This document shows positions 1 through 28,788 of a stretch of 64,000 nt of DNA, in pieces (position 1 is the first letter of the stretch; each line of letters starts with the position of its first letter). This stretch comes from Haematococcus lacustris. Taxonomy: Eukaryota; Chlorophyta; Chlorophyceae; Chlamydomonadales; Haematococcaceae. The stretch covers positions 6,001,912-6,065,911 of the forward strand of contig JASKMD010000006.1 in the NCBI GenBank assembly GCA_030144725.1, written 5' to 3'. Made by a program: the position numbers and the translations under genes. The notes beneath the pieces were generated by a model. It was not told the origin of the DNA, made no database searches, and was given only the letters and a program-made list of their open reading frames with translations.

Positions 1-1078
1 TAATGGATCATGCTACACAACTATCACATTCACCACAATCATCCCAGCATGCTTGCACATGTTATCTTGTTCGGAGGCTATGGACATTCAGGGTAGGAAT
101 GCTACATTACGGCCGACCCGCTGCCGCGCGTAGGATGCATCAGGCACGACGCTGGCGGGTGAGCACCATGTCATGGTGATGGCCAGTGGCTCAAGTAGAA
201 TGAGCCATAGGATCCATGTAGGGTTTTCGCGGTTTTACCGCATGGGTCCGGCCTGGAGGCTTGCATGCCACAGGTTTTAGCACTTGGCCGCCGCCAAGGA
301 TGTCAAGGGGTTTGGTATGGTAGACAGGTGCATTAGTTAGGTGATCACAAAATATGCATTTACTTATGCGCTGCTTCGTTTGCTCTCTTCCATCTGCCAC
401 ATGTCTTCGTTGCTCTGAGTCATCTTCACACATGCTTGCAGCTGGGGGGGGGGATTCCTTATCCTCTGCAGCGCACTATCATGTTTAGGAACATCTTATC
501 ACGTGACAGCTGTCACAACCATGAGCGTGACTGTGCGGAATGCGTGACATGGACGAGCCTTGCAAGCATGACAGGCGGTTGTATCACGGTAGATGGTGAT
601 TAGTGGATGATGGTTGATGTGACCTGGTCACTGTGGATGGATTTGTGTGTGTATCCTGCGACTTGCATAACAGTTCTGACATGGTTGCATGGGGGTTGGG
701 TATTTGTAGTGGATTGGTATGCTGCGGCGGCAGCTTAGAAGACCTTACCAGCTGTCCGATGTAATCACGGGCACCCAAGTCTGGAGGTATTCTCAGCTCA
801 CTGCCATCGGCATCTGAAGGCCGGCACCATCCTGGTGACGGGTATCAGCTTTGCCTTGCTTGCTGCTAGTCGAGGCGTCCTTACTCATTCCGTTTGCTAT
901 CTTACATTTCTTCTAAGCTCATTTCCCCGGAGGAAGGTTATCAATTGCCTTCAGCTGTCGACAGACGGACGTCTGGGCGTCAGCATCTTCACTTCGGCTG
1001 CAGTCCTGGGCACTCCGGGGTGTTCAGGCTGCAGCCAACCGTAGCTCCGCGGTGCGTGTTCTTTAACACGTTCGCCTA
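1..1078. other. No gene recognised; possible LTR/leader of the downstream retroelement
   Basis: I see no convincing coding region here; the short open frames lack codon bias and recognisable motifs. As the gag frame of the retroelement opens just downstream, part of this stretch should be its 5' LTR and untranslated leader. No second LTR copy is in the window (the 3' end is lost in the gap), so LTR borders cannot be set. A GGTATCAGC at about 840-848 weakly resembles an initiator-tRNA primer-binding site, but the match is too short to rely on. Confidence 0.4.
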
Positions 1079-1267
1079 GTGCATCAGCGCTTACATCCGC
1101 ATTCGTGCTTGCGCGAGGTGGCTGCCATAACTCAGCCGCCTGTACTGGGCACACCGTTGGAGCTTAACGGACCGTACAGCTCCACGGACAACCCAGTTTT
1201 CGACGCAGCAGCACCGCCCCAGGAACCAGCCCCAACCCCAGTCCGCAGCAGCCGCGCAGCTCAGCAC

Positions 1268-4200
1268 ATGGCGATTGTCTCCATGGCGGTGCCAGAACTT
1301 ACTGGCACTTCCCGGCTAGCTTTCAGAGCCTTCAGCCTCAAGCTGCGGGCTTACCTTGGCCTCAACCTCCACATACCGGTGAATGCGTTCCATCACTTGC
1401 TAGCTAGCTCTACCATGGATGGCGTCTTCTTTCAGTCCATCGCAGATGCTTATGAGCAGCTGGTAGATGGTTGGGGTGACGAGGCAGACAGGGCAGAAGC
1501 GTTAGAGGCCTTGCTAGACCTGGTGGAGGAGCAGCTGATAGACCCACCCAGCCACCAGGCAGGCCTAGACCCAGCTCTCGTGCTAGGGGGCAAAGGGTGC
1601 AGCAGCGCTAAGGCTTTTGCCACAGCCTTTGAGAGCGCTGTGAATGAGGCCATCAGGCGTGGCACGCTGACCCACTTCACTGCCATCAACCACCTCTTCT
1701 CTCATTGCCTGCAAGTGCCCACCATGCGCCAGGAGCAGCGCACCAAGCTCAGGGACGAGGCTGTCCGCCTATTCCACCAGGCTGTGCCGGATGCAGAGGA
1801 CCGGCAGGATCAGCGCGCCTTCAGAGCTGCCTTGCATGCAGTCAGTGCAGCGCATGAGAACCTGCTTGACAGCATGCGTTACGTGCCTGCCACTGCTGAT
1901 CGCCCACCGCTACGCGCAGAGCAGGACCTAGTGTCAGAGGAGGTGCTCCTGTTGCGGCAGCAGTTGGCTGAGCTTCAAGCTCGGGCGCTGCCTCAGCCCC
2001 CGCATCGCCAGCGTGCCCGGCAGCCCATGCCACAGCCCATGCCGCAGCCCATGCCACATCACCTGCAGCAGCCCATGCAGCAAATGGGTTACCCAATGTC
2101 GCACCCTGCCATGCAGCAGCCGTTGCCATCTGTCATGCCCATGTCCCAAGCTTTTGCTGCGCCACCAATGCAGCTGGGTTATGCAGCCATGCCTCAGCCT
2201 GCCTTGCGTAGTGCACCCATGCAGCATGCGCCCATGCAGACCCAGCGCTCGCGGCCTGCCAAGACCTGCCCTCTCCACCCCTATGCTGGCCATGATTTGG
2301 CTGAGTGCAGGCAGTTCCAGGCGATGCCACCTCATGAGCAGCAGAGAGTCATTGGTGGAAGTGCTCCGCGCGCAGCGCATGCCGTGGCTGCGCACCCGGC
2401 TGGCAGTGTGGTGTCCCGCGTCATCACTGACCCTAGGCAACGCACGCCTCTGCTGGACAGGGGGTATGTGCCTGATGCCCCAGCCCATGCGCAGCACACC
2501 TGCAGCTACTGCCACAAGCGCTACCATGCACCTGAGCGTTGCTTCAAGCTGTACCCCCACATGCAAGCAGCTCCTTCCCCCAGCCTGTCAGGTCCTGCTC
2601 GAGCCCACACCGTGTCAGCAGAGGGGTCCGGGTTGGGTGCATGGGACATGTCAGGGCATTGGGTGTCGCAGGATGCGCGGGTGCAGCCCCTCTCCTACCC
2701 TGAGCATGGCAGCTTCTGCATCATCACAGCTAATGCAGCCAGAGCAGTGCCATTCACGCCTATGTCTGCAGCCCTGCCTGCTGGTGCCACCCACACCCTG
2801 CCTAAGGCTGCAGCCCCTGCTCCTCCTGCTGCCCCAGCCACCACCCCCACCATGGGCTCTGTGTTTGCCACCCAGCCCGGCCTGCAGGAGCTATCTGTGC
2901 AGCTGCAGCACCTTGCTCAGCGTGTGACGCGTATTGAGCAGCACCTCTCGCCCAGTGTCGCACCTGTTGACACTGCTGCTCACATCGCTGCTGAACCTCC
3001 ACGAGCGGCCGCTGTGCGTGCTGCCTGCCACACCGCCGTGCCCAACCAACACCTCACCTACTTCTCCAACGTCACGGTGCAGTCAGGGTGTGCAGTGGCT
3101 GACAGTGAGGGCCAGCTGCATCTGCTCCAGGGTGTCATGCTGGACGGGGGCAGTGACAGCTGCCTTATTTCCCATGAGTGTGCAGCCGCGCTGAACCTGC
3201 CCCTCACCCCTTGCAGCCGTCGCTTGTCCACTGCGAGTGGTGCAGAGGCCTTAGCCACCCAGGTTGCCACCCTGCGCGTGAGTCTCAGCTATGGCACTCC
3301 CCATGCCATGGTGCACGACCTGGAGGCCATTGTCATGCCTCCTGGTAGCCCCCTTGCTTACGACCTGCTGCTTGGAGCCAACTTCCTCTCGCAGACCAAG
3401 GGCGTGTGCGATGTGTACGACCGGCAGTTCTCTTATTGCCCCCGGCTGCACAGCCATGGAGACGTCCGCACCTCTCACTCACTGCCAGTCACTGGGCCCA
3501 AAGGCTGCCTTCCCCTCCTATACTCAGCGCCCATGGGCAGCAGCCAGCTGCTTGTGGCTTGCACTGCCGTGTCCCACAGCCAGGTTCAGCCCTGTGCAAC
3601 CAGCGGCACCGCCTCTGCCATGATTCACACCTCGCCTTTGGTGCATGCGCAAGTGGGGACACCTCTTGCAGCGTCTGGCACCACCACACCCAGCGCAGTC
3701 AGCCGTGGGGGTGACCTAGCAGCTGTAGAGGGCGCCTTGAGCAGGGTGGCCGCCGGTGATGCACCCATACCAGCAGGATCAGGGGTGAAACCGGTGCGCA
3801 GCCCAGCCCAGCCAGTCACCCGCAGGGGGGGAGGGGCAGCTGTTACTTCTGTCCCCTCCTCAGCACTAGACCCTGCAGCTCGGCGCATGTCTATGCCAAC
3901 CAGCGCACCGCAGCCTTCAGCATCCCACCTGGCTGTGGGCACCGCTGCAGCCCGGCGCTCCGCCATCCCACTGACCACGGCCCCACCACCGCAAGTACCT
4001 CCTATGCCTCCGCTGCGCGCTTTCCCTCCACCTACGCCGCAGCGCTCCTCCAGGGAAGTGGCATGGGGATCTCTCTCACCGCTGCGGGTGGTTCTCTCTC
4101 TCCTCTTCCTCTTCTGGCTGCCCTCCATGGTGTCTTGCCTGCCACCCCCTGTGCCGGGCATGTGCTCACCTGCCATCACCTGCTCTGCCATCACCATGGT

Positions 4201-6613
4201 GCTGCCTGATGGTCCTGCTGTCAATCCCTCCCCACAGCAATACACCCAGCTGCCCAATGGTGTGCTGTTGGCTCAGCATGCGGCTCTATCCCAGCAGCAA
4301 GCACATCGCATGGCGGCTCTGGTTGCAGCTCATCCTGGTGCTTTTGCTCATTCTCTGAGTGACCTCACTGGTTACAAGGGCCCACGCGGTGCTTTTCGCA
4401 TTGAGCTGTCAACCACAGATCCCATCATCACCAAGCCCCGCCGCTATTCTGACCTGGAGCTGCAAGTAACGGACAAGAAGGTCCAGGAGCTGGAGGAGGC
4501 AGGCATCATCCAGCCCGTCACTGGCCCGTGCGACTATGCATCAGCACCCACCCTGCCCATGAAGAAAGATGCCCAGGGACAGTGGACAGACACCCGGTTC
4601 TGCATTGACTTCCGACGGCTCAACGACGCCACCAAGTCTGACCGGTATGGGTTGCCTCTGCCAGAGGAGATGTTTGCCAGGGTGGGCAGCGCCAGGTGGT
4701 TCAGCAAGCTGGACATGCGCTCAGGGTTCTTGCAAATCCCTGTGCACCCTGATGACCAGCTCAAGACTGCCTTCTGGGCACGCAACCGCCTGTACTGCTA
4801 CACTCGCATGCCGTTTGGGCTGAAAAATGCCAGCGCTGAGTACCAGCGTGTCATGGACGCAGCCATCACCAGCGCCAGCCTGTCCCATTGCTGCATGGCC
4901 TTCATTGATGATGTGCTTGTGTACAGTGACAGCTTTGAGGCACACTGTGAGCACGTGCAGGCCCTGCTGCAGATGTTGCAGACCATTGGCATGTTCGCGC
5001 ACCCTGAGAAGACCATCCTCGCCGCTGACCGTGTGGAATACCTCGGCCACGACGTCTCCGTCCATGGGCTTACCCCCACTCAGGCAAAGTGCCAGGCGCT
5101 GCGTGACATGCCTGCTCCCACTGATGTATCCAGCCTCCGCACAGCCATGGGTGTGTTCAACTACTATCGCTGCTACATTCCTGACTTCAGCATCATTGCT
5201 GCCCCCATCACCTCTCTCACAAGGAAAGGGGTAGCGTGGTGCTGGGGTTGTGAGCAGCAGGCCGCCTACAGCACACTCAAAGACAGAATCTGCACTCCTG
5301 GCTTAGTGCTGCGCCGCTTTGACCCTGAACGCCCCCTCGTCCTGCACACTGACTGGTCTCGGGAGGGCTGTGCGGGTATCTTGGGGCAGGTGGACACCAA
5401 CGGGGATGAGTACATGGTGGCTTGCTGCAGCCGCAGCTGCAACGTGCATGAGCGCAACTATGCCAGCTACACGGGCGAGATGCTAGCTGTGGTGTGGGCT
5501 GTCAAAACCCTCCGCTTCTACCTTCATGGCAGGCACTTCACCATTGTCACTGACCACCAGCCTTTGTCTTGGCTGATGTCTGGGCAACACCACTCTGGCC
5601 AGGTGGCACGCTGGGCCATGCAGCTGCAGGAGTACGACTTTACCGTCAAGCACCGTCCTGGGGTTACCCACCAGAATGCTGACTCCCTGTCACGCTTCCC
5701 CAGGCCCACCTGCGCGGATTCCACTGGCGCCTGCCTCGACCCGCCTCCTGCCCTTGCCTCCCTTATGCGTGGCGCTGCCACCACCAGCCCTCCTAACCTG
5801 CCCACACCTACCCTTTCAGCTGCCTTGGCCGCCATCACCTCTGACGACCTCCTGCTCGGCAACCAGGGAAGTGTGACAGATGCTTATCACCACGAACCCA
5901 ACACACACTCCTCCTATCCTTCCGCCGCTTACCACACTCTCACCCACCGTGCCACCAGCTGGGTCCGAGCAGCTCAGCACATTCTCATTGCAACCTCCCC
6001 CGCTACAGCCCAGTTGGGAGTCACTTCTGGCTTACCTGACTCTTGCGCTGTGCGCATGCCACTTGCCATCAACACTACATGTGTGGCCTCCTCTTTCTTT
6101 CCGGCAGTGGCAGCAGAAGGGGTGGTGCTGCTTGAGTTGCATGGGGGTCTTGGAGCTGGGTTAGAAATGCTGCTCCGCAATGGTGTACACATTCTGCGCT
6201 ACATCTACTGTGACACATCTCCTGCCTGCCAGCATCTCATCCTCCACCGTCTTTCTCAGCTGTCAGCTACCTTCCCTGGGCTGTTGCCCCCTGCTGCTTA
6301 TGCCTCTGCACTCACCTCTTTGCCCCAGGATGTGGTGCGCGCGGTCCACATCAGTGGCTGGTTGTGGCCGGGTGGGAGTATCCGCACCTTCCCAATCCTG
6401 GCAGCCTGGCTGGGCTGCATGGCCCGGTATCCAGCACCTTCCTTTCCACCATGCGGCTGGTGGGCTGCTTACAGCAGCTTCAACCCCTGCTACGCCCTGG
6501 GTATGTCCTTGTCAACACAACTCGCCAGCACAACTCCCAAACCAACCGCAGTCAATTCGCAGAGGTCTGCACCAGCATTGGCACCCCACTTTGCTTGGAT
6601 GCTGCACAGCTAG
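1268..6613 (+). CDS. Gag-protease-RT-RNase H polyprotein, running into a methyltransferase domain
   Basis: The frame is open from 1079, but the first ATG is at 1268, ahead of a gag-like helical region. A CCHC zinc knuckle (CX2CX4HX4C) lies at 2501-2542. A retropepsin-like site reads LDGGSDSCLIS near 3140, with LLLGANFL further on. A hydrophobic stretch (LRVVLSLLFLFWLPSM) near 4085-4130 is unusual for this position. The RT includes FSKLDMRSGFLQIPV and the catalytic FIDDVLVYSDS at 4901. RNase H follows with LHTD near 5342, GEMLAVVWAV and TDHQPLSWL, ending about 5700. A linker of about 140 residues leads to LELHGGLGAGLEMLLRNG at 6131, a methyltransferase motif I. The frame stops at 6613, but homology moves to another frame near 6350. 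Family assignment rests on the RT motifs; protease, RT and RNase H look intact. Confidence 0.8.
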   Translation: MAIVSMAVPELTGTSRLAFRAFSLKLRAYLGLNLHIPVNAFHHLLASSTMDGVFFQSIADAYEQLVDGWGDEADRAEALEALLDLVEEQLIDPPSHQAGLDPALVLGGKGCSSAKAFATAFESAVNEAIRRGTLTHFTAINHLFSHCLQVPTMRQEQRTKLRDEAVRLFHQAVPDAEDRQDQRAFRAALHAVSAAHENLLDSMRYVPATADRPPLRAEQDLVSEEVLLLRQQLAELQARALPQPPHRQRARQPMPQPMPQPMPHHLQQPMQQMGYPMSHPAMQQPLPSVMPMSQAFAAPPMQLGYAAMPQPALRSAPMQHAPMQTQRSRPAKTCPLHPYAGHDLAECRQFQAMPPHEQQRVIGGSAPRAAHAVAAHPAGSVVSRVITDPRQRTPLLDRGYVPDAPAHAQHTCSYCHKRYHAPERCFKLYPHMQAAPSPSLSGPARAHTVSAEGSGLGAWDMSGHWVSQDARVQPLSYPEHGSFCIITANAARAVPFTPMSAALPAGATHTLPKAAAPAPPAAPATTPTMGSVFATQPGLQELSVQLQHLAQRVTRIEQHLSPSVAPVDTAAHIAAEPPRAAAVRAACHTAVPNQHLTYFSNVTVQSGCAVADSEGQLHLLQGVMLDGGSDSCLISHECAAALNLPLTPCSRRLSTASGAEALATQVATLRVSLSYGTPHAMVHDLEAIVMPPGSPLAYDLLLGANFLSQTKGVCDVYDRQFSYCPRLHSHGDVRTSHSLPVTGPKGCLPLLYSAPMGSSQLLVACTAVSHSQVQPCATSGTASAMIHTSPLVHAQVGTPLAASGTTTPSAVSRGGDLAAVEGALSRVAAGDAPIPAGSGVKPVRSPAQPVTRRGGGAAVTSVPSSALDPAARRMSMPTSAPQPSASHLAVGTAAARRSAIPLTTAPPPQVPPMPPLRAFPPPTPQRSSREVAWGSLSPLRVVLSLLFLFWLPSMVSCLPPPVPGMCSPAITCSAITMVLPDGPAVNPSPQQYTQLPNGVLLAQHAALSQQQAHRMAALVAAHPGAFAHSLSDLTGYKGPRGAFRIELSTTDPIITKPRRYSDLELQVTDKKVQELEEAGIIQPVTGPCDYASAPTLPMKKDAQGQWTDTRFCIDFRRLNDATKSDRYGLPLPEEMFARVGSARWFSKLDMRSGFLQIPVHPDDQLKTAFWARNRLYCYTRMPFGLKNASAEYQRVMDAAITSASLSHCCMAFIDDVLVYSDSFEAHCEHVQALLQMLQTIGMFAHPEKTILAADRVEYLGHDVSVHGLTPTQAKCQALRDMPAPTDVSSLRTAMGVFNYYRCYIPDFSIIAAPITSLTRKGVAWCWGCEQQAAYSTLKDRICTPGLVLRRFDPERPLVLHTDWSREGCAGILGQVDTNGDEYMVACCSRSCNVHERNYASYTGEMLAVVWAVKTLRFYLHGRHFTIVTDHQPLSWLMSGQHHSGQVARWAMQLQEYDFTVKHRPGVTHQNADSLSRFPRPTCADSTGACLDPPPALASLMRGAATTSPPNLPTPTLSAALAAITSDDLLLGNQGSVTDAYHHEPNTHSSYPSAAYHTLTHRATSWVRAAQHILIATSPATAQLGVTSGLPDSCAVRMPLAINTTCVASSFFPAVAAEGVVLLELHGGLGAGLEMLLRNGVHILRYIYCDTSPACQHLILHRLSQLSATFPGLLPPAAYASALTSLPQDVVRAVHISGWLWPGGSIRTFPILAAWLGCMARYPAPSFPPCGWWAAYSSFNPCYALGMSLSTQLASTTPKPTAVNSQRSAPALAPHFAWMLHS

Positions 6614-6725
6614 GTGCTCGCACCCACCACATGCGTGACTGGTGGACCAACATTTGCGACCCCAACCACCTCAGTGCTGTCCTGCAGCATGCTCAGCCTC
6701 GGTCCGCTCATTCGCTGGTTGACAT
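6122..6725 (+). pseudogene. Cytosine-5 DNA methyltransferase domain, frameshifted and cut by gap
   Basis: C5 methyltransferases transfer a methyl group from S-adenosylmethionine to cytosine in DNA. Motif I (S-AdoMet binding) is seen as ELHGGLGAGLEMLL in the polyprotein frame at 6134. It is followed by IYCDTSPACQ and an HRLSQL..FPGLLP block typical of algal and retroelement-borne members. Near 6345-6362 the similarity moves to the frame starting at 6301, with VVAGWEYPHLPNPG at 6364, GLHGPVSSTF, PGYVLVNT and then DAAQLGARTHHMRDWWTN, matching late motifs (IX/X region) of the family. A one-base loss or a -1 shift would join the halves. In GWxC, where the catalytic Cys of motif IV is expected, the codon at 6379-6381 is TAT (Tyr), one transition from TGT. 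So this copy is probably catalytically dead. The C-terminal end is in the gap. Confidence 0.7.
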
Positions 6726-7225
6726 NNNNNNNNNNNNNNNNNNNNNNNNNNNNNNNNNNNNNNNNNNNNNNNNNNNNNNNNNNNNNNNNNNNNNNNNNNN
6801 NNNNNNNNNNNNNNNNNNNNNNNNNNNNNNNNNNNNNNNNNNNNNNNNNNNNNNNNNNNNNNNNNNNNNNNNNNNNNNNNNNNNNNNNNNNNNNNNNNNN
6901 NNNNNNNNNNNNNNNNNNNNNNNNNNNNNNNNNNNNNNNNNNNNNNNNNNNNNNNNNNNNNNNNNNNNNNNNNNNNNNNNNNNNNNNNNNNNNNNNNNNN
7001 NNNNNNNNNNNNNNNNNNNNNNNNNNNNNNNNNNNNNNNNNNNNNNNNNNNNNNNNNNNNNNNNNNNNNNNNNNNNNNNNNNNNNNNNNNNNNNNNNNNN
7101 NNNNNNNNNNNNNNNNNNNNNNNNNNNNNNNNNNNNNNNNNNNNNNNNNNNNNNNNNNNNNNNNNNNNNNNNNNNNNNNNNNNNNNNNNNNNNNNNNNNN
7201 NNNNNNNNNNNNNNNNNNNNNNNNN
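6726..7225. other. Assembly gap of exactly 500 N
   Basis: An uninterrupted run of N. The round length suggests a placeholder of unknown true size. It hides the 3' end of the methyltransferase retroelement and possibly the 5' exons of the acyl-CoA reductase gene. Confidence 0.99.
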
Positions 7226-7427
7226 CCCTCGCCCTCGCCCTCGCCCTCGCCCTCGCCCTCGCCCTCGCCCTCGCCCTCGCCCTCGCCCTCGCCCTCGCCC
7301 TCGCCCTCGCCTCGCCCTCGCCCTCGCCCTCGCCCTCGCCCTCGCCCTCGCCCTCGCCCTCGCCCTCGCCCTCGCCCTCGCCCTCGCCCTCGCCCTCGCC
7401 CTCGCCCTCGCCCTCACCCTCCCCCTG
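7226..7427. repeat. (CCCTCG)n hexanucleotide array
   Basis: About 30 near-perfect CCCTCG units directly abut the gap, with one phase slip near 7310 and a degenerate end. It lies in the intron before the first visible reductase exon and is the likely reason the assembly broke. It is open in several frames (alternating two-residue peptides), which is a composition artefact. Confidence 0.95.
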
Positions 7428-7462: not shown

Positions 7463-10400
7463 GCAGGCATGCGCTGCGCCATCGTGCGCCCCTCCATTGT
7501 TGAGAGCGCTGTCAGTGAGCCGCTGCCAGGCTGGCTGGAGGGGGTCAAGGTGGCGGAGCCACTCATCCTGGCGTACGGCCTGGGCAAGCTGGCCGGCTTC
7601 CCAATGAGCAGGTAACCACCCCATCTACCCCTCCCACCGGCCCCCTGCCTGCCTCCCCGGGTGCTTACCAGCCCGGCACACCCCCTTCAAGGGAGCCCCC
7701 CCACCGTGTACTGACATGTAACCCTCCAGGACCCCTCCATGCCTAACCCCCCACAGGGTCATTGAATGCAGGGCCTCTGCCTCCGCCTCTGCCTCTTCCC
7801 CCCTGGAGCATCACTGCCCCCATCCCTCCTCCCCCCGGCCCCTCCGGCCCCTAGGTCTCGATCCCCCTTTGGCTCCCCTAGGCCCTGACTGCCCCCCAGC
7901 CCTCCCCCCCCAGCCCGGCCTGCTCCCCGCCTCTTTTTGACACGCCTCAGGCCCCCTAGGCCCCCTGCCCCCCTGCCCCCCTGGCCCCCCTGCCCCCCTG
8001 CCCCCAGTGCCCTAGGCTCACAACCCCCCACCCACCCCTTGCCCTTGACTGCTCCGCTGACCCGGCTCAGGACCTCCTGCCTGGATGTGGTGCCAGTGGA
8101 CATGGTGGTCAACACGCTGGTGGGGGCGCTGTGGGCAACTGCCACAGGGGAGGGCACCCCCACACCCACACACCTCACCACCTCGGCCTGCCCTGACCCC
8201 CGCCCCGACCTCCCCTGGGCAAGCCAGCTGGGGAAAGGAGGCAGACTGGGGACTGGGGGAGGAGAAGTTGTCGTGAGGGCCTCAGCTGGCTCCCCCTCCC
8301 CCCCTGCCTCCCCCCCTGCCTCCCCCCCCCCTGCCCACCAGCTGCCCTGGCAGCCCTGCTCAGCCCCTCAGCACAGTCAGCAGCGTGACCCGGTGCAGCA
8401 GCAGCGAGGAGGTGGAGGCAGCAGCAGGGGGGGCCGGCTGGAGGGTCAGGGTCAGCAGGGGGGGGCGGGGGGGCCCCAGGGCCTAGGAGGGGCAGGCGGC
8501 CCCCCCTTGCGCGTGTACCAGGTGGCCACTGGGGCGGTGAACCCGCTGATGAACAGCCGCTTCCCCGGACCCCTACAGTGGGTGGCGCCTGACCCTGACC
8601 CTAACTCTGACCCTAACTCTGACCCTGACCCTGACCCTAACTCTGACCCTGACCCTGACCCTGACCCTAACTCTGACCCTAACTCTGACCCTGACCCTGA
8701 CCCTAACTCTGACCCTGACCCTGACCCTGACCCTGACCCTGACCCTAACTCTGACCCTGACCCTGACCCTGACCCTGACCTGACCTGACCTGACCTGACC
8801 TGACCTGACCTGACCTGACCTGACCTGACCTGACCTGACCTGACCTGACCTGACCTGACCTGACCTGACCTGACCTGACCTGACCTGACCTGACCCTGAC
8901 CTGACCTGACCTGACCTGACCTGACCTGACCTGACCTGACCTGACCTGACCTGACCTGACCTGACCTGACCTGACCTGACCTGACCTGACCTGACCTGAC
9001 CTGACCTGACCTGACCTGACCTGACCTGACCTGACCTGACCTGACCTGACCTGACCTGACCTGACCTGACCTGACCTGACCTGACCTGACCTGACCTGAC
9101 CTGACCTGACCTGACCTGACCTGACCTGACCTGACCTGACCTGACCTGACCTGACCTGACCTGACCTGACCTGACCTGACCTGACCTGACCTGACCTGAC
9201 CTGACCTGACCTGACCTGACCTGACCTGACCTGACCTGACCTGACCTGACCTGACCTGACCTGACCTGACCTGACCTGACCTGACCTGACCTGACCTGAC
9301 CTGACCTGACCTGACCTGACCTGACCTGACCTGACCTGACCTGACCTGACCTGACCTGACCTGACCTGACCTGACCTGACCTGACCTGACCTGACCTGAC
9401 CTGACCTGACCTGACCTGACCTGACCTGACCTGACCCTGACCTGACCTGACCTGACCTGACCTGACCTGACCTGACCTGACCTGACCTGACCTGACCTGA
9501 CCTGACCTGACCTGACCTGACCTGACCTGACCTGACCTGACCTGACCTGACCTGACCTGACCTGACCTGACCTGACCTGACCTGACCTGACCTGACCTGA
9601 CCTGACCTGACCTGACCTGACCCTGACCTGACCTGACCTGACCTGACCTGACCTGACCTGACCTGACCTGACCTGACCTGACCTGACCTGACCTGACCTG
9701 ACCTGACCTGACCCTGACCTGACCTGACCCTGACCTGACCTGACCCTGACCTGACCTGACCTGACCTGACCCTGACCTGACCTGACCTGACCTGACCCTG
9801 ACCTGACCCTGACCCTGACCCTGACCTGACCTGACCTGACCTGACCTGACCCTGACCTGACCCTGACCTGACCCTGACCTGACCCTGACCTGACCCTGAC
9901 CTGACCCTGACCTGACCCTGACCCTGACCTGACCTGACCTGACCTGACCTGACCTGACCTGACCCTGACCTGACCTGACCCTGACCTGACCTGACCCTGA
10001 CCTGACCCTGACCTGACCCTGACCTGACCCTGACCTGACCCTGACCTGACCCTGACCTGACCCTGACCTGACCTGACCTGACCTGACCTGACCTGACCCT
10101 GACCTGACCTGACCCTGACCCTGACCCTGACCCTGACCTGACCCTGACCTGACCCTGACCCTGACCCTGACCTGACCCTGACTCTGACCCTGACCTGACC
10201 CTGACCTGACCTGACCTGACCTGACCTGACCCTGACCTGACCTGACCTGACCTGACCCTGACCTGACCTGACCTGACCTGACCTGACCCTGACCTGACCT
10301 GACCTGACCTGACCTGACCTGACCTGACCTGACCTGACCTGACCTGACCTGACCCTGACCTGACCTGACCTGACCTGACCTGACCCTGACCTGACCTGAC

Positions 10401-13400
10401 CCTGACCTGACCTGACCCTGACCTGACCCTGACCTGACCCTGACCTGACCCTGACCTGACCTGACCTGACCTGACCCTGACCTGACCTGACCTGACCTGA
10501 CCTGACCTGACCCTGACCTGACCTGACCTGACCTGACCTGACCCTGACCTGACCTGACCTGACCCTGACCTGACCTGACCTGACCTGACCTGACCTGACC
10601 TGACCCTGACCTGACCTGACCCTGACCTGACCTGACCCTGACCTGACCTGACCTGACCTGACCTGACCCTGACCTGACCTGACCTGACCTGACCTGACCC
10701 TGACCTGACCTGACCTGACCTGACCTGACCTGACCTGACCTGACCCTGACCTGACCTGACCTGACCTGACCTGACCTGACCTGACCTGACCTGACCTGAC
10801 CTGACCTGACCTGACCTGACCTGACCTGACCTGACCTGACCTGACCTGACCTGACCTGACCTGACCTGACCTGACCTGACCTGACCTGACCTGACCCTGA
10901 CCTGACCTGACCTGACCTGACCTGACCTGACCTGACCTGACCTGACCCTGACCTGACCTGACCTGACCTGACCTGACCTGACCTGACCTGACCTGACCTG
11001 ACCTGACCTGACCTGACCTGACCCTGACCTGACCTGACCTGACCTGACCTGACCTGACCTGACCTGACCTGACCTGACCCTGACCTGACCTGACCTGACC
11101 TGACCTGACCTGACCTGACCTGACCTGACCTGACCTGACCTGACCTGACCTGACCTGACCTGACCTGACCTGACCTGACTCTGACCTGACCTGACCTGAC
11201 CTGACCTGACCTGACCTGACCTGACCTGACCTGACCTGACCTGACCTGACCTGACCTGACCTGACCTGACTCTGACCTGACCTGACCTGACCTGACCTGA
11301 CCTGACCTGACCCTGACCTGACCTGACCTGACCTGACCTGACCTGACCTGACCTGACCTGACCTGACCTGACCTGACCTGACCTGACCTGACCTGACCCT
11401 GACCTGACCTGACCTGACCTGACCTGACCCTGACCTGACCTGACCTGACCTGACCTGACCTGACCTGACCTGACCCTGCCCTTAACTCTGACCCTGCCCT
11501 TAACTCTGACCCTGCCCTTAACTCTGACCCTGCCCTTAACTCTGACTCAACCCTACTCCTAGCCCCCTGCAGAGCGTGCCTCATCAGCTGGCTGGCAATG
11601 ATGGGCTGAGGGGGGCTAAGGGGGGGGGAGGGCAGCACTGCTTAGACCGCTGACGGTCCCCTTACCCCCCACCCCGCTGTACACCCACCCCCTGCTCTCA
11701 CCTCCCTGCCACCCTCACCCCCCTCTTCACCCCCCCCCTGCCCCCCCCTGCCCCCCCTGCCCCCCAGGCGGGCCCTGCAGCAGTACCCCCTGAGGGACCG
11801 GCGCAGCGGGCTGCTGCTGAAAGTGGACGCCCCCTTCAAGCTGTACGCCGACACCGCCTCCTTCATGCGAGAGGTGGAGGGGGCCCTGCCGCCTCGCTGG
11901 CTGGCCAGACTCACAGGTGGCTGGGGAGAGGAGGGGGGAGGGGGAGGAGGGGGGGAGTGGGGGAGTAGGAGGAGGAGGGGGGGAGAGGGGGAGGGGGGAG
12001 GGGAGGGGTAGATATTGGGGGCGAGGCCGGGGACCCAAAGTTTGCAGGCAGCAGTGACAGTCAGTGCCCCCCCGTGCGCCCCCTGTCCGCCCTCCTCCCA
12101 CCTGCCCCCCTTCCCCTCACCTCCGCCCGGCTTGCCCCTGGCCAAGGTGCCCGCCCCCTGGACCCCCTGAACCCCCTGGTGCAGGCCAGCTGGGCAGGCT
12201 GGATCAGGGCCTGGCCAAGCTGCGGCGCATGACTGGGCTGTACACCCCATACACCTTCAACCAGTGCAGGTGGGGCGGCAGGCCCGGGGGGGGCCCGGGG
12301 GGGAGGGGAGGGGGCCTGGCTGGGTTGGCGGCAGCAGTCTGGCGGGGTTGGCTGCCCAAGGCAGAGCCAAGGGCGGTGTGTGGGTGAGCGTGATGCTGAC
12401 CGGACGCTTTGCTCACTGAGGACTGGTTGGAAGGTGTGGTGAGAGTGACCCCACCTGGTTGGAAGGTGTGGTGAGAGTGACCCCACCTGGTTGGGAGGTG
12501 TGGTGAGAGTGACCCCACCTGGTTGGGAGGTGTGGTGAGAGTGACCCCACCTGGTTGGAAGGTGTGGTGAGAGTGACCCCACCTGGTTGGGAGGTGTGGT
12601 GAGAGTGACCCCACCTGGTTGGGAGGTGTGGTGAGAGTGACCCCACCTGGTTGGAAGGTGTGGTGAGAGTGACCCCACCTGGTTGGGAGGTGTGGTGAGA
12701 GTGACCCCACCTGGTTGGGAGGTGTGGTGAGAGTGACCCCACCTGGTTGGAAGGTGTGGTGAGAGTGACCCCACCTGGTTGGGAGGTGTGGTGAGAGTGA
12801 CCCCACCTGGTTGGGAGGTGTGGTGAGAGTGACCCCACCTGGTTGGAAGGTGTGGTGAGAGTGACCCCACCTGGTTGGGAGGTGTGGTGAGAGTGACCCC
12901 ACCTGGTTGGGAGGTGTGGTGAGAGTGACCCCACCTGGTTGGAAGGTGTGGTGAGAGTGACCCCACCTGGTTGGGAGGTGTGGTGAGAGTGACCCCACCT
13001 GGTTGGGAGGTGTGGTGAGAGTGACCCCACCTGGTTGGAAGGTGTGGTGAGAGTGACCCCACCTGGTTGGGAGGTGTGGTGAGAGTGACCCCACCTGGTT
13101 GGGAGGTGTGGTGAGAGTGACCCCACCTGGTTGGAAGGTGTGGTGAGAGTGACCCCACCTGGTTGGGAGGTGTGGTGAGAGTGACCCCACCTGGTTGGGA
13201 GGTGTGGTGAGAGTGACCCCACCTGGTTGGAAGGTGTGGTGAGAGTGACCCCACCTGGTTGGGAGGTGTGGTGAGAGTGACCCCACCTGGTTGGAAGGTG
13301 TGGTGAGAGTGACCCCACCTGGTTGGGAGGTGTGGTGAGAGTGACCCCACCTGGTTGGGAGGTGTGGTGAGAGTGACCCCACCTGGTTGGGAGGTGTGGT

Positions 13401-21295: not shown

Positions 21296-24200
21296 CTAGG
21301 ACAAACCATGCACTGCATTATATGCAGTCAACACTTCTAGGCAGTTCACAAGGTTATTCCTTGGCTCCCATGTGTTGTAAGAGTCATCATAACCCTGCCA
21401 CTTGACTAAGTAGCCTCGTGCTTTACCAGCACGCACGCCACGATGGGCAAGCAACTTCTCCACCTCATACAGAGGCGCCTCATCCAACCACTCCACAGGA
21501 GGAGGCAGGTGAGGATGCTCACTGGTGTAGGGTCTCAGAAGAGACACATGAAACACAGGGTGCATGCGCGCCATGGCTTGTGGCAGGTCCAGGCGAACAG
21601 CAACAGGACCTACATGCTCTAGCACCTTGAAAGGTCCTATGAACCTAGGCAGCAGCTTCTTAGCCTTACCTGGCTTCATCCTGAGGTTCTTAGTGCTAAG
21701 AAGCACCAACTGACCAGTGTGGTACTCCACCTCCTGACGTCCCTTGTTGGCCATATAGGCCTGTCGCCGCTGAGCCAGTTCCATGAAGTGGCGAGCCTGC
21801 TTGACATTGCTCTGCCACCACTCAGACAGTCTCCTGGCAGTGGGACAGTACACCTCGCCAGGCAGCTCCAGCAGGGCAGGTGTCAGAGGTGACTGGCCAG
21901 TATTGACCAAGAAGGGCGTGGACTGGATGGACTCCTGCCAACTATTGTTGACAGCAAACTCAGCCAGAGATAGGAAGAAGGGCCAGTCAGACTGAGCAGG
22001 TGAGATATAATGGCGAAGCATTTCCTCTAGGGTACGATTGTACCTCTCAGTCTGACCATCAGACTGTGGATGATAGGCACTAGACTTACATTCCTTTACA
22101 CCAAGAATGGTCATAATTGACGCCCAGAAATGATTAGTAAAATGGGAGCCCCTATCAGAGATGATTTCTCTAGGTACTCCATGGTGTTTAAACACATTGT
22201 CAATGAAGAGACGGGCAAAGCTCTCAGCATTCATAGACTCACGGCAAGGCACAAAGTGCACCATTTTAGATAGCCTGTCTACAAACACGGCAATGGCATC
22301 AAAGCCATGCTCACCAGGAGGTAGCTTAGTAATTAGGTCCATTGAAATAGACTCCCATCTGTCATAGGGTATGGCCAGAGGCGTGAGCAGGCCTCCAGGT
22401 TTGGTATTAACAGATTTGTTACGCTGGCAAGCATCACAGTTGGCCACATAATGGCGTACCTCAGACCTCATGCGGGGCCACCAGAACATCCTGGAGATAC
22501 GCTCCAGCGTTTTGGTAATGCCCACATGACCTGCAAACTGCGCATCATGCATCTCCACCAATATCCTGGTTTTGAGCTCTGGGCAGTTAGGGACCACTAT
22601 CTGGTTCCTTTCTCTGGTGCGATACAGCCCATGCTGATCCTGATCATACTGATCCACCATGCTGGCAAAAGCCTCATCTGCTGCATACGCTGCCAGCAGC
22701 TGCTCTGTCATATTGACAGCATGCAGAGGGTGCAAAGGCACAGGGGGTGGGGGCAGAGGCTGCTCCAGCACCAGCTGTGGCTGCGGCTCCTGCTGCGGCT
22801 GCTGCATAACTGGCTGCTGCTGCTGCACAGTAGCTTCCTCCCCCTCCAAAAGGCGCTTCCTGCTCCTGGTCATAACCATGACAGGGTTTGTGACAGGAGC
22901 ATCAGGTATGCGTGACAGGGGGTCAGCAGGGTTAGTATCACCAGGCAGGTATTCTATGGTAAAATTATAGCGTGAGAGGAACTCTAACCATCTGGTTTGG
23001 CGTCTTGATAAGACTTTCTGTGTTTTCAGAGCCACTAAGGGCTTGTGATCTGTATACAGAGTGAAAGGGACACCCTCCAGGTAGCAACGCCACTCTTTAC
23101 ACGCAGTAATGATAGCAAGTAATTCCTGCTCTCCAGTGGTGTAATTCTTCTCAGCTGGAATCAGCTTTTTGCTTAAATAAGCCAGAGGGTAACCCTCTTG
23201 CATGAGCACAGCTCCAACGCCTTGCAAAGAGGCATCACAGTATACCTGGAAAGGCTTAGTGATATCGGGTATTTTAAGTAGAGGTACTTTAGATATTGCA
23301 TGCTTGAGAGCATCAAAAGCCTGTAATTTATCATCAGGCCACTTATGCCAGTTAAACTCAATGCCGACTTTACCAGTCAGATCAGTGAGCGGTGCTGCAA
23401 GAGCACTAAAATTGTGTACAAATTTGCGCACAAAATTGGCTGCACCCAGGAATTGCTGCATTGCAGTCAAGCTGCGTGGCACAGGCCAGGAGGTGATGGA
23501 TTTCACCTTATCAGGGTCAACAGCAATACCCTGGTCGCTGACTATGTGACCCAGAAACTTCAGGGCAGTTTTTAGAAACTCACATTTTGACAGCTTGGCT
23601 TGGAACTGATGTTTCCTTAGCAGCTCCAAGACCCTCCTGAGATGATTGAAGTGATCTGGAACTGATTTGGACATGATGAGTATATCATCAATATACACCA
23701 GGGCACAGTCATTAATGACATCAGCAAAGGCATTATTCATAACACGCTGAAACGTGGCAGGGGCATTGGTTAAGCCAAAGCATAGCACCTTAAACTGGTA
23801 CAAGCCAGTAGGTGTCCTGAAAGCTGTCTTGGGCACATCCTCATCAGGGATCCTAATCTGGTGATAACCAGCCTGTAGATCAAGTGATGAGAACACCGTG
23901 CAACCAGCTAACCTGTCAAACAGGTCATCCACTCTAGGCAGTGGGTACTGATCCCTCAAGGTAATCTTATTGAGCTGGCGGTAATCCACGCACATCCTTA
24001 ACTCACCTGACTTCTTTTTCACAAAGAGGACAGGTGCAGCATAGGGTGAGGATGACGGCTCAATGATGCCCTGTTCCAGGAAAGCAGCAACCTGCTTCTT
24101 CATCTCCAGCAGCTCAGGTTGGCTCATCTTATAAGACGGCAGAGCTGGTGGCTTACAGCCAGGCTGAAGAGGGATGGTATGTCCCACTGGACGTTGAGGG

Positions 24201-24443
24201 GGCAGTTTGTTGAAGGGTGCGAAGACGTCCTCAAACTCAGATATGAGCGCTGTCAGCTGAGCTGCCACAGCATGGGGAATGTTGGTAGGGTAATTGATAG
24301 GTGTGTCAGGGGGTGAGGTTGTTGTTTGAGTGTGAGGGACAGGGTCATTGGACAGCAGATTTGCTGGAGAAGGGGTAGGGTGCACGGACAGCAGATTTGC
24401 TGGAGGGGGGGTAAGGTTGACGGGTTGAGAGGATATCAGAGCG
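21296..24443 (-). CDS. Outer chromovirus pol, 3' portion: RT, RNase H, integrase, chromodomain
   Basis: This is the downstream part of a pol frame interrupted by the nested element; reading resumes at 24443. RT motifs include RMCVDYRQLNKITLRDQYPL, SSLDLQAGYHQIRI and LVYIDDILIMSKS near 23680. RNase H has YCDASLQGVGAVL, TGEQELLAII and YTDHKPLVAL. The integrase has a zinc-binding HHCC (HDAQFAGHVGITKTLERI ... CDACQRNK) and the DDE core (AVFVDRLSKMVHFVP, IISDRGSHFTNHFW, AYHPQSDGQTERYNR). It ends with a chromodomain: YEVEKLLAHRGVRAGKARGY, LVKWQGYDDSYNTWEP. The final stop is at 21296-21298. The protease segment at 31912-32501 is in register once the nested element and one TSD copy are removed (codon GTC across the junction), so pol was intact when it was interrupted. 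Confidence 0.93.
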
Positions 24444-24448
24444 ACCAG

Positions 24449-24641
24449 TGTTACGTGTTAAACCAGCGAATAATAGGACGTGTGGCTCAAGATCCCAGGG
24501 CGTAGTCAACGGAGAGATCTCCGGGAGTCGAACCCGGCTTTTGACACCGGTCACCACACTTCCTACTACACACTGGTTATTAGAGGGTATACGAACGGGT
24601 GGCCTTATTGGCATAATAACCTGACGCATTCCCACGTTACA
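24449..24641 (-). repeat. 3' LTR of inner chromovirus (uninterrupted)
   Basis: 193 bp, TGTTACGTG ... CCCACGTTACA. It serves as the empty-site reference for the insertion in the other LTR: here GGTTAT runs directly into TAGAGGGTATACG. Confidence 0.95.
24531..24547 (-). promoter_or_regulatory. tRNA T-arm mimic / B-box in inner LTR
   Basis: The sense strand reads CCGGGTTCGACTCCCGG: a perfect 5-bp stem and a 7-base TTCGACT loop, exactly the geometry of a tRNA T-psi-C arm, with GGTTCGACTCC matching the Pol III B-box. The second copy is at 31075-31091. The outer family carries the same 11-base core in an otherwise different LTR. Confidence 0.55.
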
Positions 24642-24783: not shown

Positions 24784-27700
24784 CTAGAGCTCTGGCAGTG
24801 CTCCATGTTCTTCAATGTAAGCTTGCATTGCCTCTTCACAGTTCAGGAGGTTCTTTTGTGGCTCCCACGTGTCATGCTCCTCCGAGTAGCCAGCCCACCG
24901 AACTAGGAACTCCAAGCCTTTCTTCGCCTCTTTGCTCTTGGGCCGGCCCTTGCCCCGGTTGCGGCCTTTGAGCTTCACGACCCTGTGAGCCAGCAGCTTC
25001 TCAACCTCATAGACAGGTTCTCCTTCTAGCCACTGCACAGGAGGCGGTGCCGCTAAGTTAGGCGTTTGGTTCCCACAGTAGGGCTTGACTAGGGACACAT
25101 GGAACACGTTGTGCATGCGGTTCCAGCTAGGGGGCAGATGCAGTTGTACTGCCACCTTGCCAATCATTCGCAGCACTGTGAAGGGCCCCACATATCGTGG
25201 TTTCAGTTTTCGCACTCCTTGCTCATTTTGGTTGTTTCTCATGTTGACAGTACTGAGCAACACCTGTGCACCCGGGTGATACGAGACTTCACGTCGCTTG
25301 CCATCGACCAAAGCTTTCATCCGCTGCTGAGCCACTCACCAGCATTGTTTGGCTTTCCGCACAGCCTTTTCGATACCCTCCACAAACTCAGCTGCCTTAG
25401 GCACTTTGCGTGGTAGGTCCATCACAGCTGGCGTCAGCGGATGCTGGCCATAATTGAGGAAGAATGGCGAATTGCGCACCGTCTCGTGCCATGAGTTGTT
25501 TATGGCGAACTCAACCCAGGGCAAGTGGTCTGCCCAGTCACTGTGGTTCTCATCGACATAATGTCTTAGCATTTCTTCAATGATTCTGTTAGCTCTTTCG
25601 GTCTGGCCGTCAGTCTCAGGATGGTAGGCACTGGACATACACAGCTGGGTGTGGCACAGCTCGCACACATGCCTCCAGTACTGGCTGTTGAAGATAGGAC
25701 CACGGTCACTCACGACCGAGGCCGGCAGGCCATGTAGCCGCACCACTTCACGATAGAACAGCCGGGCAGCGTCTGCAGCACTGATTGCCTCGTGTGTAGG
25801 GACCAGATGCACCATCTTGCTGAGCCTGTCGACATAGACCATGATGCTGTCATAGTTTTGCTTCCCACTCTTGGGCAGTTTTACAATCATGTCCATACTT
25901 ATGCTTTCCCAGCGACGACCAGGTATAGACAGGGGTTGGAGCTTGCCGGCCTTGAGGCGGGTGCTGGGCTTGTTGCGCTGGCAGGCATCACATTGCCGCA
26001 CATAGTCCTCCACATCCTTGCGCATGCCTGGCCACGTGAAGTAGCGGTTCACGCCATGCCATGTTTTGCTGATGCCCATGTGACCAGCATAGTTGGCATC
26101 ATGGCATGACTCAAGCACCTGCCTCCTGACAAGGGGGCTCTTAGGCACAACCACCTTGCCACCGGACATCCATAGCCCCGCTTCACTCAACTCATAGGCT
26201 TGTGTGTAGGCACGATCAGCGAACCGCTCATCGGTGCTGTAGCCTTTAATGATTGCCTCTATGAGTGAGTCACCTGTTGTCGTGCTGTACTCGGTGCTCG
26301 CCGCAGGTGTGTGTGTGGCCGAGTCCAGCTGGGTCTCCCCCCCACCAGGCCACTCATCACATGGGGCAACAGGGTAAGGGACGACAGCCCGGCCATCAGC
26401 GCATGGGCGTCTGTGGCGGCGTGTATCAGCTGGAGGGCATGGCGCAGCCGGTGGAGGCTGACCAGTGGACTGCTGTTGCAGCAGCCCAGCTTGGCGCCGT
26501 GTCAACACCAAGGCATACACGCCAGACACACATAGGGCGGCACCAACGGAGACCATGATAGGCTCTCCGTCATCGTCATCACTGCCAGTGCTGGTCATCT
26601 GGTATGTCAGAGCAGGATTGCGACTCAGCGGATCTGCCACATTGCCCTTCCCTGGCTTGTACTCAATGTGATGGTTAAAGCGTGCCAGAAACTCCATCCA
26701 TCGGGCTTGCCGCCTGGAGAGATTTGTCTGTGTCTTGAGATAGATCAATGGGTTGTGGTCAGTCACGATGGTCACATGCACGGCCCCGTCAAGGTAGCAG
26801 CGCCATTCTTGCAGTGCTCTGATGATACCCAGAAGTTCTTGCTCTCCTGTGGTGTATTTCATCTGTGCAGGGGAGAATTTGTGGCTGGTGTATGCCACCA
26901 CTCTACCACCCTGCAAGAGAACACCTCCCGTGCCGACCAGTGAGGCATCAGACCACACTTCAAACGGCTGGTTGGGATCAGGGAGCGCCAGCACTGGAGT
27001 GGAGCATAGAGCTTGCTTGAGAGCGTTGAAAGCTCTTAAAGCAGGCTCTCCCAGTTGTTGCCAGTTGGTACCGGCAGCCACTTTCTCACCGGTCAAGTGT
27101 GTTAGTGGGGCCGCGATGGTGCTATAACCAGCAATGAACCGCCGGAAGAAGTTGGCCAACCCCAGGAAAGCTTGTAGCTCTTTGAGGGATGTAGGGACAG
27201 GCCACTCCTTGATGACTTGCACCTTGGCAGGGTCTACTGCAATGCCTTGCCTGCCGACGATATGCCCCAAGAACTTCAGTTCTGGTCTGTTGAAGTCACA
27301 CTTGCTCAGTTTGGCATACAACTGGTTGTCTTTCATTACTTGCAGTACTTCTTTTAAATGAATAGCATGCTCTTCTGGTGAGCTGCTCATCACCAGGATG
27401 TCGTCTAGATACACGAGCACAAAGCCCTCTTTGAGCTGTTTCTCAAACACACGGTTCATGACACGTTGGAATGTAGCCGGTGCATTTGTCAACCCAAAGC
27501 TCAGCACTTTGTACTGGAACTGGCCCTCAGGGGTCACAAATGCTGTCTTAGGCACATCTTCAGGTGTGATACGGATCTGGTGGTAGCCACTTTGCAGATC
27601 CAAAGAGCTGAAAATTGTCTTGCCTTGCAGTTTGTCAAAGAGGTCATCGATGCGTGGCAAGGGATACCTATCCCGCACCGTGAGCTTGTTCAGTGCTCGG

Positions 27701-28788
27701 TAATCTACACACATCCTCAAAGTCCCATCACGCTTTTCCACAAATAGGACTGGAGCGCCGTAAGGACTGCAGCTAGGCTCAATGAGCTTTTTAGCTAGCA
27801 GCTCGGCCACTTGCTTTTTCATTTCATTCATTTCTCTGAAGGTGTAGCGCCTAGAACGCTGATAAGGTGGCACGTGATCAGGCACCATGCGAATGGTATG
27901 CCCAACTCCACGGTCAGGTGGCAGCCCTGATGGCATGTCTTGGAAGACCTCGGGATACCTGTCATGTACCAAGGAATCCACCTCACTCTGGGGCATGAGC
28001 CCATGCACATGTTGTTCAGTTTTTGATTTTTTAGCACTGCCCGCAATCACCGAAGCAAGCGACCCACTGTGCCATCCTTCATCAGCATCGCCATCATCAG
28101 GTTGCACCAACACCAAGACACTTGGGCAGCCTTTCCTGAGTGCTCGCGCTGCTTGCTGCGCGCTGCACTGCTCCACAGGCTTGTTGCTGTTTGCCATGTG
28201 GGTCAAGACTGCAATGCCAGGTTGAAATTTGAGATGTTGAGAATGAAGCTTGTGTTTTTTGCCTTGTACTTGGATGTGGCAGATGTTAGTGCTGACGTCT
28301 AGTAGCGCGTTATGCGATTTTTGCCAATCAGCACCAAGAATTAGATCAATGCCATCAAGCATTTGAGGCAGAATTTTAGCCACGACAGGTGTCAACGACT
28401 TTTGCATGCACACCATTCCATGCACCTGGCTGGTAATGGGTAGCACAGCATTGTTTGCTGCAAGCACCTGCACCTTGTGCTCCAATGGTGCTAGAGTGAC
28501 GTCTGCTGTGGGGTTGGTATTCAGCCACTTCTCAGACAGGATTGTGTACGTGGCGCCTGTGTCAATCATAGCCACACACTCTCTGCCTCCAAGCCTTGCT
28601 GTGAAGACAAAGGGGAGGGCTAGCTGCTTTGTTTTTATTGGCGTGCAGACAGCGCCAAGGATATTGGGAGTCAGGAACGGTTGCTGAGAGACATCATTGT
28701 GTACATCTCTTACATACAGCAATGTGTTAGGCAACTGGCCCTGCTCAATACCTGGTAAGTCACATCCATAACTAGTCCAGGCAAATTC
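24784..28788 (-). CDS. Inner chromovirus pol: protease, RT, RNase H, integrase, chromodomain (one in-frame TGA)
   Basis: The frame opens directly after the gag stop (TAG 28789-28791) in the same register; no ATG is needed if the stop is read through (first candidate start near 28734). Protease: CVAMIDTGATYTILSEKWL. RT: RMCVDYRALNKLTVRDRYPL, SSLDLQSGYHQIRI and [13 protein letters not shown]. RNase H: WSDASLVGTGGVL and VTDHNPLIYL. Integrase: HDANYAGHMGISKTW ... CDACQRNK, VYVDRLSKMVHLVPT, VVSDRGPIFNSQYW and [19 protein letters not shown] at 25336-25338 follows KAKQCW and interrupts the frame before the C-terminal portion. The same frame then continues to a chromodomain (PVYEVEKLLAHR ... LVRWAGYSEEHDTWEP) ending at 24784. 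Unless that TGA is suppressed, the integrase loses its GPY/F-type region and chromodomain. Confidence 0.9.

Follow-up and report, generated by a model that had tools for sequence, protein, structure and literature searches.

A Dnmt3-type cytosine methyltransferase between RNase H and integrase in a Ty3/gypsy retrotransposon family of Haematococcus lacustris, kept in one lineage and broken in another

Why would the polyprotein of a gypsy retrotransposon run from its RNase H into a cytosine-5 (C5) DNA methyltransferase, and what might such an enzyme do for the element? The question is raised by positions 511-6723 of a 64,000-nucleotide stretch of the Haematococcus lacustris genome (contig C373:6001912-6065911 of a 308 Mb assembly; the whole stretch is hereafter called the window), which form the 5′ part of a Ty3/gypsy long terminal repeat (LTR) retrotransposon interrupted by a 500-N gap. 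We think it likely that this element belongs to a Ty3/gypsy family which carries a Dnmt3-type C5 DNA methyltransferase (DNMT) between RNase H and integrase, and that the lineage represented in the window has a broken enzyme.

Both halves of the methyltransferase-like segment match the DNMT family. The clean test is an independent profile built from 11 relatives, none of them from a source named Haematococcus, which scores 103 bits (E = 4e-31) in the 1067-6610 open reading frame (ORF) and 125 bits (E = 1.8e-37) in the ORF opening at 6214, compared with a top score of 8.4 bits over 20 shuffles of 1170 window ORF fragments. Scores of the 314-position DNMT family profile on the window are partly circular, as this profile includes window-lineage members. 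The sequence-only reading, in which a gypsy RNase H runs into a C5 methyltransferase, is thus borne out, together with its motif I (LELHGGLGAGLEMLL, 6131-6175) and its late block (QLGARTHHMRDWWTN, 6607-6651, within the ORF opening at 6214). The shift of frame that it described also stands, with the DNMT half in the shifted frame now placed from about 6331: near 6335 the DNMT-like segment passes from the Gag-Pol frame to the frame opening at 6214. The suggested search with Pfam DNA_methylase, taken literally, gives no match in the window's own translation. This miss is not read as a refutation, because the same search gives the relative P0007 no better than E = 0.38, or 0.048 with its isolated domain; PF00145 is matched at E ≤ 10 by each of the 12 sequences in the domain alignment (best E, 6e-12). 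The element does not start at 1079, as was first proposed, since its 5′ LTR, the only one of its LTRs within the window, lies further upstream. The parts of the window element are as follows.

511-912, plus strand: 5′ LTR of about 402 nt, starting with TG (blastn with the LTR of the C40 copy, 95.8% identity)
1067-6613, plus strand: Gag-Pol open frame, 1848 codons from stop to stop; gene model P0003 begins at Met 1268
2267-2308, plus strand: zinc-knuckle-like Gag motif CPLHPYAGHDLAEC, placed by motif position and assigned by eye
2501-2542, plus strand: Gag CCHC zinc knuckle CSYCHKRYHAPERC (C-x2-C-x4-H-x4-C), placed by motif position and assigned by eye
3134-3394, plus strand: aspartyl protease (Pfam gag-asp_proteas, E = 1e-6, residues 690-776)
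4550-5068, plus strand: reverse transcriptase (RT), with FIDD at 4901 (Pfam RVT_1, E = 2e-26; family profile position; motif)
5243-5638, plus strand: RNase H (Pfam RT_RNaseH, E = 4e-32; family profile position)
6119-6340, plus strand: N-terminal part of the DNMT remnant with motif I, read in the frame of Gag-Pol (independent profile, E = 4e-31; covers positions 1-74 of 314 in the family profile)
6331-6723, plus strand: middle part of the DNMT remnant with motifs IV, VI and VIII, read in the frame opening at 6214 (independent profile, E = 1.8e-37; covers positions 83-215 of 314 in the family profile)
6370-6402, plus strand: motif IV, GWEYPHLPNPG, in the ORF opening at 6214
6502-6519, plus strand: motif VI, YVLVNT, in the ORF opening at 6214
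6726-7225, no strand: 500-N assembly gap (read from the sequence); the remainder of the element lies outside the window

The assignment to Ty3/gypsy is based on protease, RT and RNase H in the window (Pfam), on H2C2 and rve domains in the near-identical gene model P0002 and on the integrase of the copies win_C40 and win_C373b. That no integrase precedes the methyltransferase was correctly noticed, but the integrase is absent from the window only, where the gap intervenes, and is present 3′ of the DNMT in relatives and full-length copies. In the window copy, motif IV reads GWEYPH, with loss of the catalytic Cys, motif VI reads VNT, with Glu replaced by Val, and the frame is split; judged by these motifs and the split frame, its enzyme cannot be active. 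The public gene models P0003 and P0004 bridge this break by going directly from 6334 to 6475, apparently through a spurious intron, and are therefore not to be read as intact proteins.

The window copy stops at an N gap, as might be expected if a separate methyltransferase gene had been misassembled onto a retroelement. The same junction nonetheless recurs in many copies, by which such an artefact is ruled out for practical purposes. Our counts cover the fetched loci, i.e., 30 of the window lineage (L001-L030) and 20 of a sister lineage; further relatives occur outside this set, some with stops (e.g., on C64, C147 and C373). All 30 window-lineage loci have the junction, with the frame split in 12 (L001-L012, of which L007 is the window) and continuous in 18 (L013-L030), it is again in frame in sister loci L047-L063, and the same order is found in other sequenced samples.

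The enzyme is broken in every fetched locus of the window lineage. In all 30 loci, motif IV reads YPH (n = 15) or CPH (n = 15, Cys kept) where CQD is expected, the motif VI Glu is replaced by Val in 29 (L015 is not matched by the search pattern), and DNMT profile matches stop at or before position 230 of 314. Self-methylation in cis by this lineage, which had been put forward as a way to persist, is closed off by these motifs and, in the window copy, by the split frame. Split L001 and open L013 differ by a single 34-nt gap, with 588 of 600 aligned bases otherwise equal, and eight genomic places including the window are 100% identical across a 349-residue query spanning the break in the Gag-Pol frame. 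An open copy of this lineage (10,232 nt, 2817 codons) retains integrase, PHD finger and C-terminal domain. Of the split copies, two were read at full length (9118 and 9115 nt); in both, ORF1 terminates within the DNMT and the integrase lies in a 723-codon ORF2 in another frame; these two copies show no PHD match, and their C-terminal domain is reduced to the last 55 of 197 profile positions. Split copies may hence be non-autonomous, the deletion cutting Pol and the DNMT, perhaps also the integrase, being borrowed from other copies, for which intact-DNMT copies are at hand in the same genome. We rate this as possible but the less probable case, as the two ORFs share 400 nt, with ORF2 in the -1 register, so that a ribosomal frameshift could still give integrase in cis, and as a single frame of 2815-2828 codons is kept in 9 of the 18 unsplit loci.

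The search for other copies also led to an intact DNMT, in the sister lineage and with the integrase 3′ of it. In 17 of its 20 fetched loci (L047-L063), the motif IV Cys, the motif VI Glu and the motif VIII Arg are all kept and no stop occurs, the remaining three (L064-L066) being broken by frame changes or a stop. Two sister copies (10,503 and 10,547 nt; 2893 and 2879 codons) retain all domains with a complete DNMT. The selection analysis points in the same direction. Rates of nonsynonymous to synonymous substitution (dN/dS, omega) were estimated with identical sequences collapsed (16 distinct sequences in the sister lineage; eight in the window lineage, from 17 unsplit loci), leaving out the broken sister loci L064-L066 and the 12 split loci, and with L030 dropped from the collapsed run. 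For the DNMT, omega is 0.17 in the sister lineage versus 0.57 for the window-lineage remnant (0.586 in a run keeping L030), and for RNase H plus linker it is 0.13 versus 0.12. Judged from these ratios, purifying selection acts on the DNMT in the sister lineage and is relaxed in the window lineage of the same genome, with RNase H constrained in both; the enzyme is, by the same estimates, kept by selection in the sister lineage and not needed in cis by the window lineage.

Both lineages are young where they could be dated. LTR pairs were seen in six of eight fetched 15-kb regions, and two more were obtained via flanks, one of them cut by a contig end. Identity between the two LTRs is 99.5-100% in six elements, one of which has its right LTR next to an N run, and 100% over 620 nt in another, with 99.5-99.75% in two sister-lineage copies and 99.75-100% in the window lineage; the measured copies are thus recent. 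No clear target-site duplication or tRNA primer site was seen by eye in the flanks of five elements. At G000:C476:18584400-18599300 (L045/L046), a DNMT element lies between 712-nt identical direct repeats, possibly a local duplication or an assembly artefact. The A-B-internal-B-A pattern of the C476 copy had suggested DIRS-like repeats, a candidate that was rejected: two other copies lack A in their flanks, and the LTR lies within B, so that A is local flank.

To which class does the enzyme belong? Of 115 aligned domains, 112 have the motif IV Cys, 111 the motif VI Glu and 108 the AHR Arg. This alignment omits 10 of 125 proteins with matches of at least 700 residues, including P0003-P0005 of the broken lineage and P0002, in which the DNMT is skipped; as broken-lineage proteins are among those omitted, the true share of kept Cys and Glu is slightly lower. 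Against PDB sequences, a 12-member DNMT profile matches DNMT3A at E = 4e-14, an unnamed DNA methyltransferase chain at 1e-10, plant DRM2 at 1e-7, M.HhaI at 7e-6 and DNMT2 at 0.03. An AlphaFold2 model of the P0007 DNMT (pLDDT 88) finds DNMT3-type enzymes in all of its best 50 Foldseek rows, with a target TM of about 0.8 for catalytic-domain chains. By motifs and predicted fold, the DNMT of the sister copies is a C5 DNA methyltransferase of the Dnmt3 type. Its closest solved relatives are DNMT3A/DNMT3B and DRM2 by profile, and DNMT3A/3B also by fold. It differs from DNMT3A/3B in its sequence (16-20% identity in the fold alignments shown), in that most members read ECQ at the place of PCN in the aligned DNMT3A, and in that no PWWP match was found in the four polyproteins scanned.

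The layout recurs well beyond the two lineages. Homologue searches returned at least 10, at least 168 and at least 75 proteins, and among the matches listed (for the 168, the best 120) the named hosts are H. lacustris, Cymbomonas tetramitiformis (P0196) and Closterium (P0174-P0176, P0178, P0179 and P0188); P0128 carries the code Chrzof1, which we take to be Chromochloris zofingiensis. The polyprotein order in relatives is protease, RT, RNase H, DNMT, integrase, PHD finger and C-terminal domain. A profile scan of 125 long homologues finds the series from RT to the C-terminal domain complete in 78 and a subset in the same order in 45 (one of them the DNMT alone), a PHD match lying ahead of RT in the other two. 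Across 102 proteins, DNMT distances correlate with those of RT (r = 0.48) and of the integrase (r = 0.62), and RT with integrase at r = 0.56; the observed value was reached in 0 of 999 permutations for each of the three pairs. The DNMT thus tracks RT and integrase about as these track each other, as expected if it was inherited together with the element. Its acquisition probably predates the split of the compared lineages. The six Closterium sp. NIES-53/54 proteins carry a related DNMT (29-36% identity to the Haematococcus domain) in other surroundings, known from gene models only: after a protease-like stretch in P0175 (Pfam, below cut-off), P0176 and P0179 (by eye), ahead of the RT start in P0188, and joined to a copia-type gag in P0178. 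These gene models suggest a second placement of a related DNMT.

At the other end of the polyprotein, the predicted structure of the C-terminal domain of relatives has a class I S-adenosylmethionine-dependent methyltransferase fold. It models as a second methyltransferase with N6-adenine enzymes as its nearest neighbours, an assignment that rests on the order of the VIA-align rows; the top Foldseek rows also include protein and small-molecule methyltransferases and spermidine synthase. Against PDB sequences, the domain gives weak matches only, the best at 0.17 (a ribosomal protein) and 0.19 (an N6-adenine methylase), and Pfam MethyltransfD12 is found in 8 of 15 domains, the best E of 2e-4 being the one score shown and lying below the cut-off. 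The N6-adenine motif I (D-x-[FWL]-x-G) occurs in 44 of 86 domains, motif IV ([SATN]P[PWF][FWYP]) in 29 and both in 23; neither was found in the Haematococcus domains of P0005-P0007. One may picture a green-algal gypsy clade with a kit for writing and reading marks, in which a Dnmt3-like writer of 5-methylcytosine (5mC) beside the integrase, a PHD reader, a tudor- or chromo-like module and an N6-adenine-type C-terminal domain, catalytically intact in some members, would set 5mC and N6-methyladenine (6mA) on the cDNA or the landing site, several lineages having since lost one or both writers. As a whole, this picture is tentative and rather improbable.

What, then, could the DNMT do for the element? 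We take as given by the sequences the architecture, the conserved catalytic residues, the two methyltransferase folds, the young copies, the purifying selection on the DNMT in one lineage and its loss in the window lineage; activity of the element's DNMT and self-methylation are predicted from motifs and models. In the intact lineages, the DNMT would travel in the particle beside the integrase and methylate either the newly made cDNA or the adjoining target DNA as the element integrates or immediately afterwards. The insert would then be born with CG methylation, resembling the rest of the host genome, and the PHD finger together with a tudor- or chromo-like domain would steer integration to marked nucleosomes. 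We hold this combination of in-particle methylation and reader-guided integration to be plausible, at slightly less than even likelihood. The window lineage would survive without its own DNMT either because the step is helpful but dispensable or because the sister lineage supplies the enzyme in trans; as this lineage spreads without a working DNMT, the methylation step is not essential in cis.

Several observations weigh against our reading. The spread of the window lineage with a broken DNMT speaks against an essential role, and of the 17 intact-DNMT sister loci, just five have an open frame exceeding 2800 codons. A 400-codon control from RT to the linker gives an omega of 0.59-0.67 in the window lineage and so does not behave as a constrained control, for which we suspect loci with frame or homology breaks upstream. 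The nearest published element, KnitGypsy-Dnmt3, produced no methylation in yeast, a result that its authors call inconclusive in the main text (PMC5890265). The ratio of observed to expected CpG is 0.48-0.55 in the elements and 0.30-0.62 in six other window stretches and does not distinguish them. Finally, the residue before the catalytic Cys is mostly Glu (88 of 115) and Pro in only 16, giving ECQ instead of PCQ. This unusual motif would also fit a DNMT with RNA as its substrate or with a tethering role through nucleic-acid binding, DNA methylation not being its main job; RNA was suggested for SymbioLINE by de Mendoza et al. in their main text (PMC5890265). We consider such a role doubtful, as the catalytic Cys and Glu are near-invariant, which a mere tether would not require, and as the nearest solved families, DNMT3 and DRM2, are DNA enzymes, with DNMT2 far behind.

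CpG observed/expected is 0.30-0.62 across the 12 stretches measured; judged by this range, the host genome is CG-depleted and probably methylated. CpG depletion was rejected as a mark of self-methylation, the elements falling within the range of other window stretches. For CpG transitions, changed sites amount to 32 per 89 CG versus 39 per 229 GC in 17 intact-lineage loci and to 6 per 88 CG versus 16 per 229 GC in 14 broken-lineage loci, small numbers in both cases. A search of the host with PF00145 gave nine exon-level matches on two contigs, with one exon pair Dnmt1-like by eye; no spliced host Dnmt3 was seen in this search, which also missed the element's own DNMTs. A Dnmt1-like host enzyme would fit a reading in which the DNMT silences or restrains its own element or its rivals, marking copies for the host maintenance methylase and thereby limiting damage to the host, an idea raised by de Mendoza et al. 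in their main text (PMC5890265). The window lineage would then be an escapee without a brake, and it is indeed common among the fetched loci, with 30 of them, and recent in the copies measured, with eight genomic places identical over 349 residues and near-identical LTR pairs. The intact lineage is also young and numerous, however, with most of its fetched loci intact, so that no clear gain from loss of the brake is apparent, and restraint seems unlikely to us, if somewhat less so than a role on RNA. We retain the predicted methylation of new copies as the preferred role.

The window holds further gypsy sequences and repeats. On the minus strand, another Ty3/gypsy ORF (44860-49383) has RT, RNase H, integrase and a PHD finger after the integrase. 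It resembles gypsy elements with a chromatin reader only, and differs from the family described here in showing no DNMT match and no match to the C-terminal-domain profile; since its PHD finger comes without a DNMT match, elements in this genome can carry a PHD finger independently of the DNMT. Two more minus-strand gypsy ORFs (21299-24457 and 25339-28788) have RT, RNase H and integrase without DNMT or PHD matches. A (CCCTCG)n-type array follows immediately after the N gap (7226-7425), a long minisatellite at 8452-11641 encodes VRSGQ repeats in all three minus-strand frames, and the 1 kb at 51001-52000 is without any A on the given strand and has a strong C bias (GC 0.83, AT skew -1, GC skew -0.60).

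Retrotransposons with a DNMT had been noted as reported from a few eukaryotic lineages (dinoflagellate and charophyte algae), which agrees with their description in dinoflagellates and Klebsormidium in the main text of PMC5890265. KnitGypsy-Dnmt3 of Klebsormidium nitens is likewise an LTR gypsy element with a Dnmt3-related DNMT in Pol, under purifying selection (Ka/Ks < 0.2 there, omega of 0.17 in one lineage here); compared by description only, it differs in its streptophyte host and in its repeats, described as DIRS-like versus the ordinary direct LTRs found here, and the main text does not contain the word 'PHD' (PMC5890265). No Klebsormidium was among the matches listed in our homologue searches, one of which lists the best 120 of 168. 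SymbioDIRS-Dnmt3 and SymbioLINE-Dnmt of Symbiodinium are also retrotransposon-borne DNMTs in many copies, but belong to the DIRS (tyrosine recombinase) and LINE classes in dinoflagellates, as opposed to an LTR gypsy element with an rve integrase; cDNA self-methylation was proposed for SymbioDIRS-Dnmt3, whose DNMT methylates CG in yeast (main text of PMC5890265). In their accessible text, PMC6338049 counts green algae among the hosts of Ty3/Gypsy and DIRS elements that encode a DAM or DCM but does not name the element described here, PMC12344493 refers to Copia and DIRS elements with a DNMT3, along with separate ChloroDNMTs, and PMC3627910 deals with DNA transposons. The words 'gypsy' and 'methyltransferase' are absent from the main text of the Haematococcus genome paper (PMC7617258). 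In the open-access literature, figures and supplements lying outside its scope, our search found no description of the chlorophyte family, of a DNMT placed together with a PHD finger or of the second methyltransferase-like domain. DNMT retrotransposons including a gypsy element are thus already known from a streptophyte alga and dinoflagellates; as far as we found, the chlorophyte family and its layout are new.

DNMT-bearing LTR retrotransposons are hereby extended to chlorophytes, with a layout recurring across many sequences in which the DNMT lies between RNase H and integrase and is followed by a PHD finger and a second methyltransferase-like fold. Within one genome, two young lineages stand side by side, one with intact motifs and purifying selection and the other with broken motifs and relaxed selection. 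This contrast makes the benefit of a retrotransposon's own DNMT directly testable in a single cultured alga.

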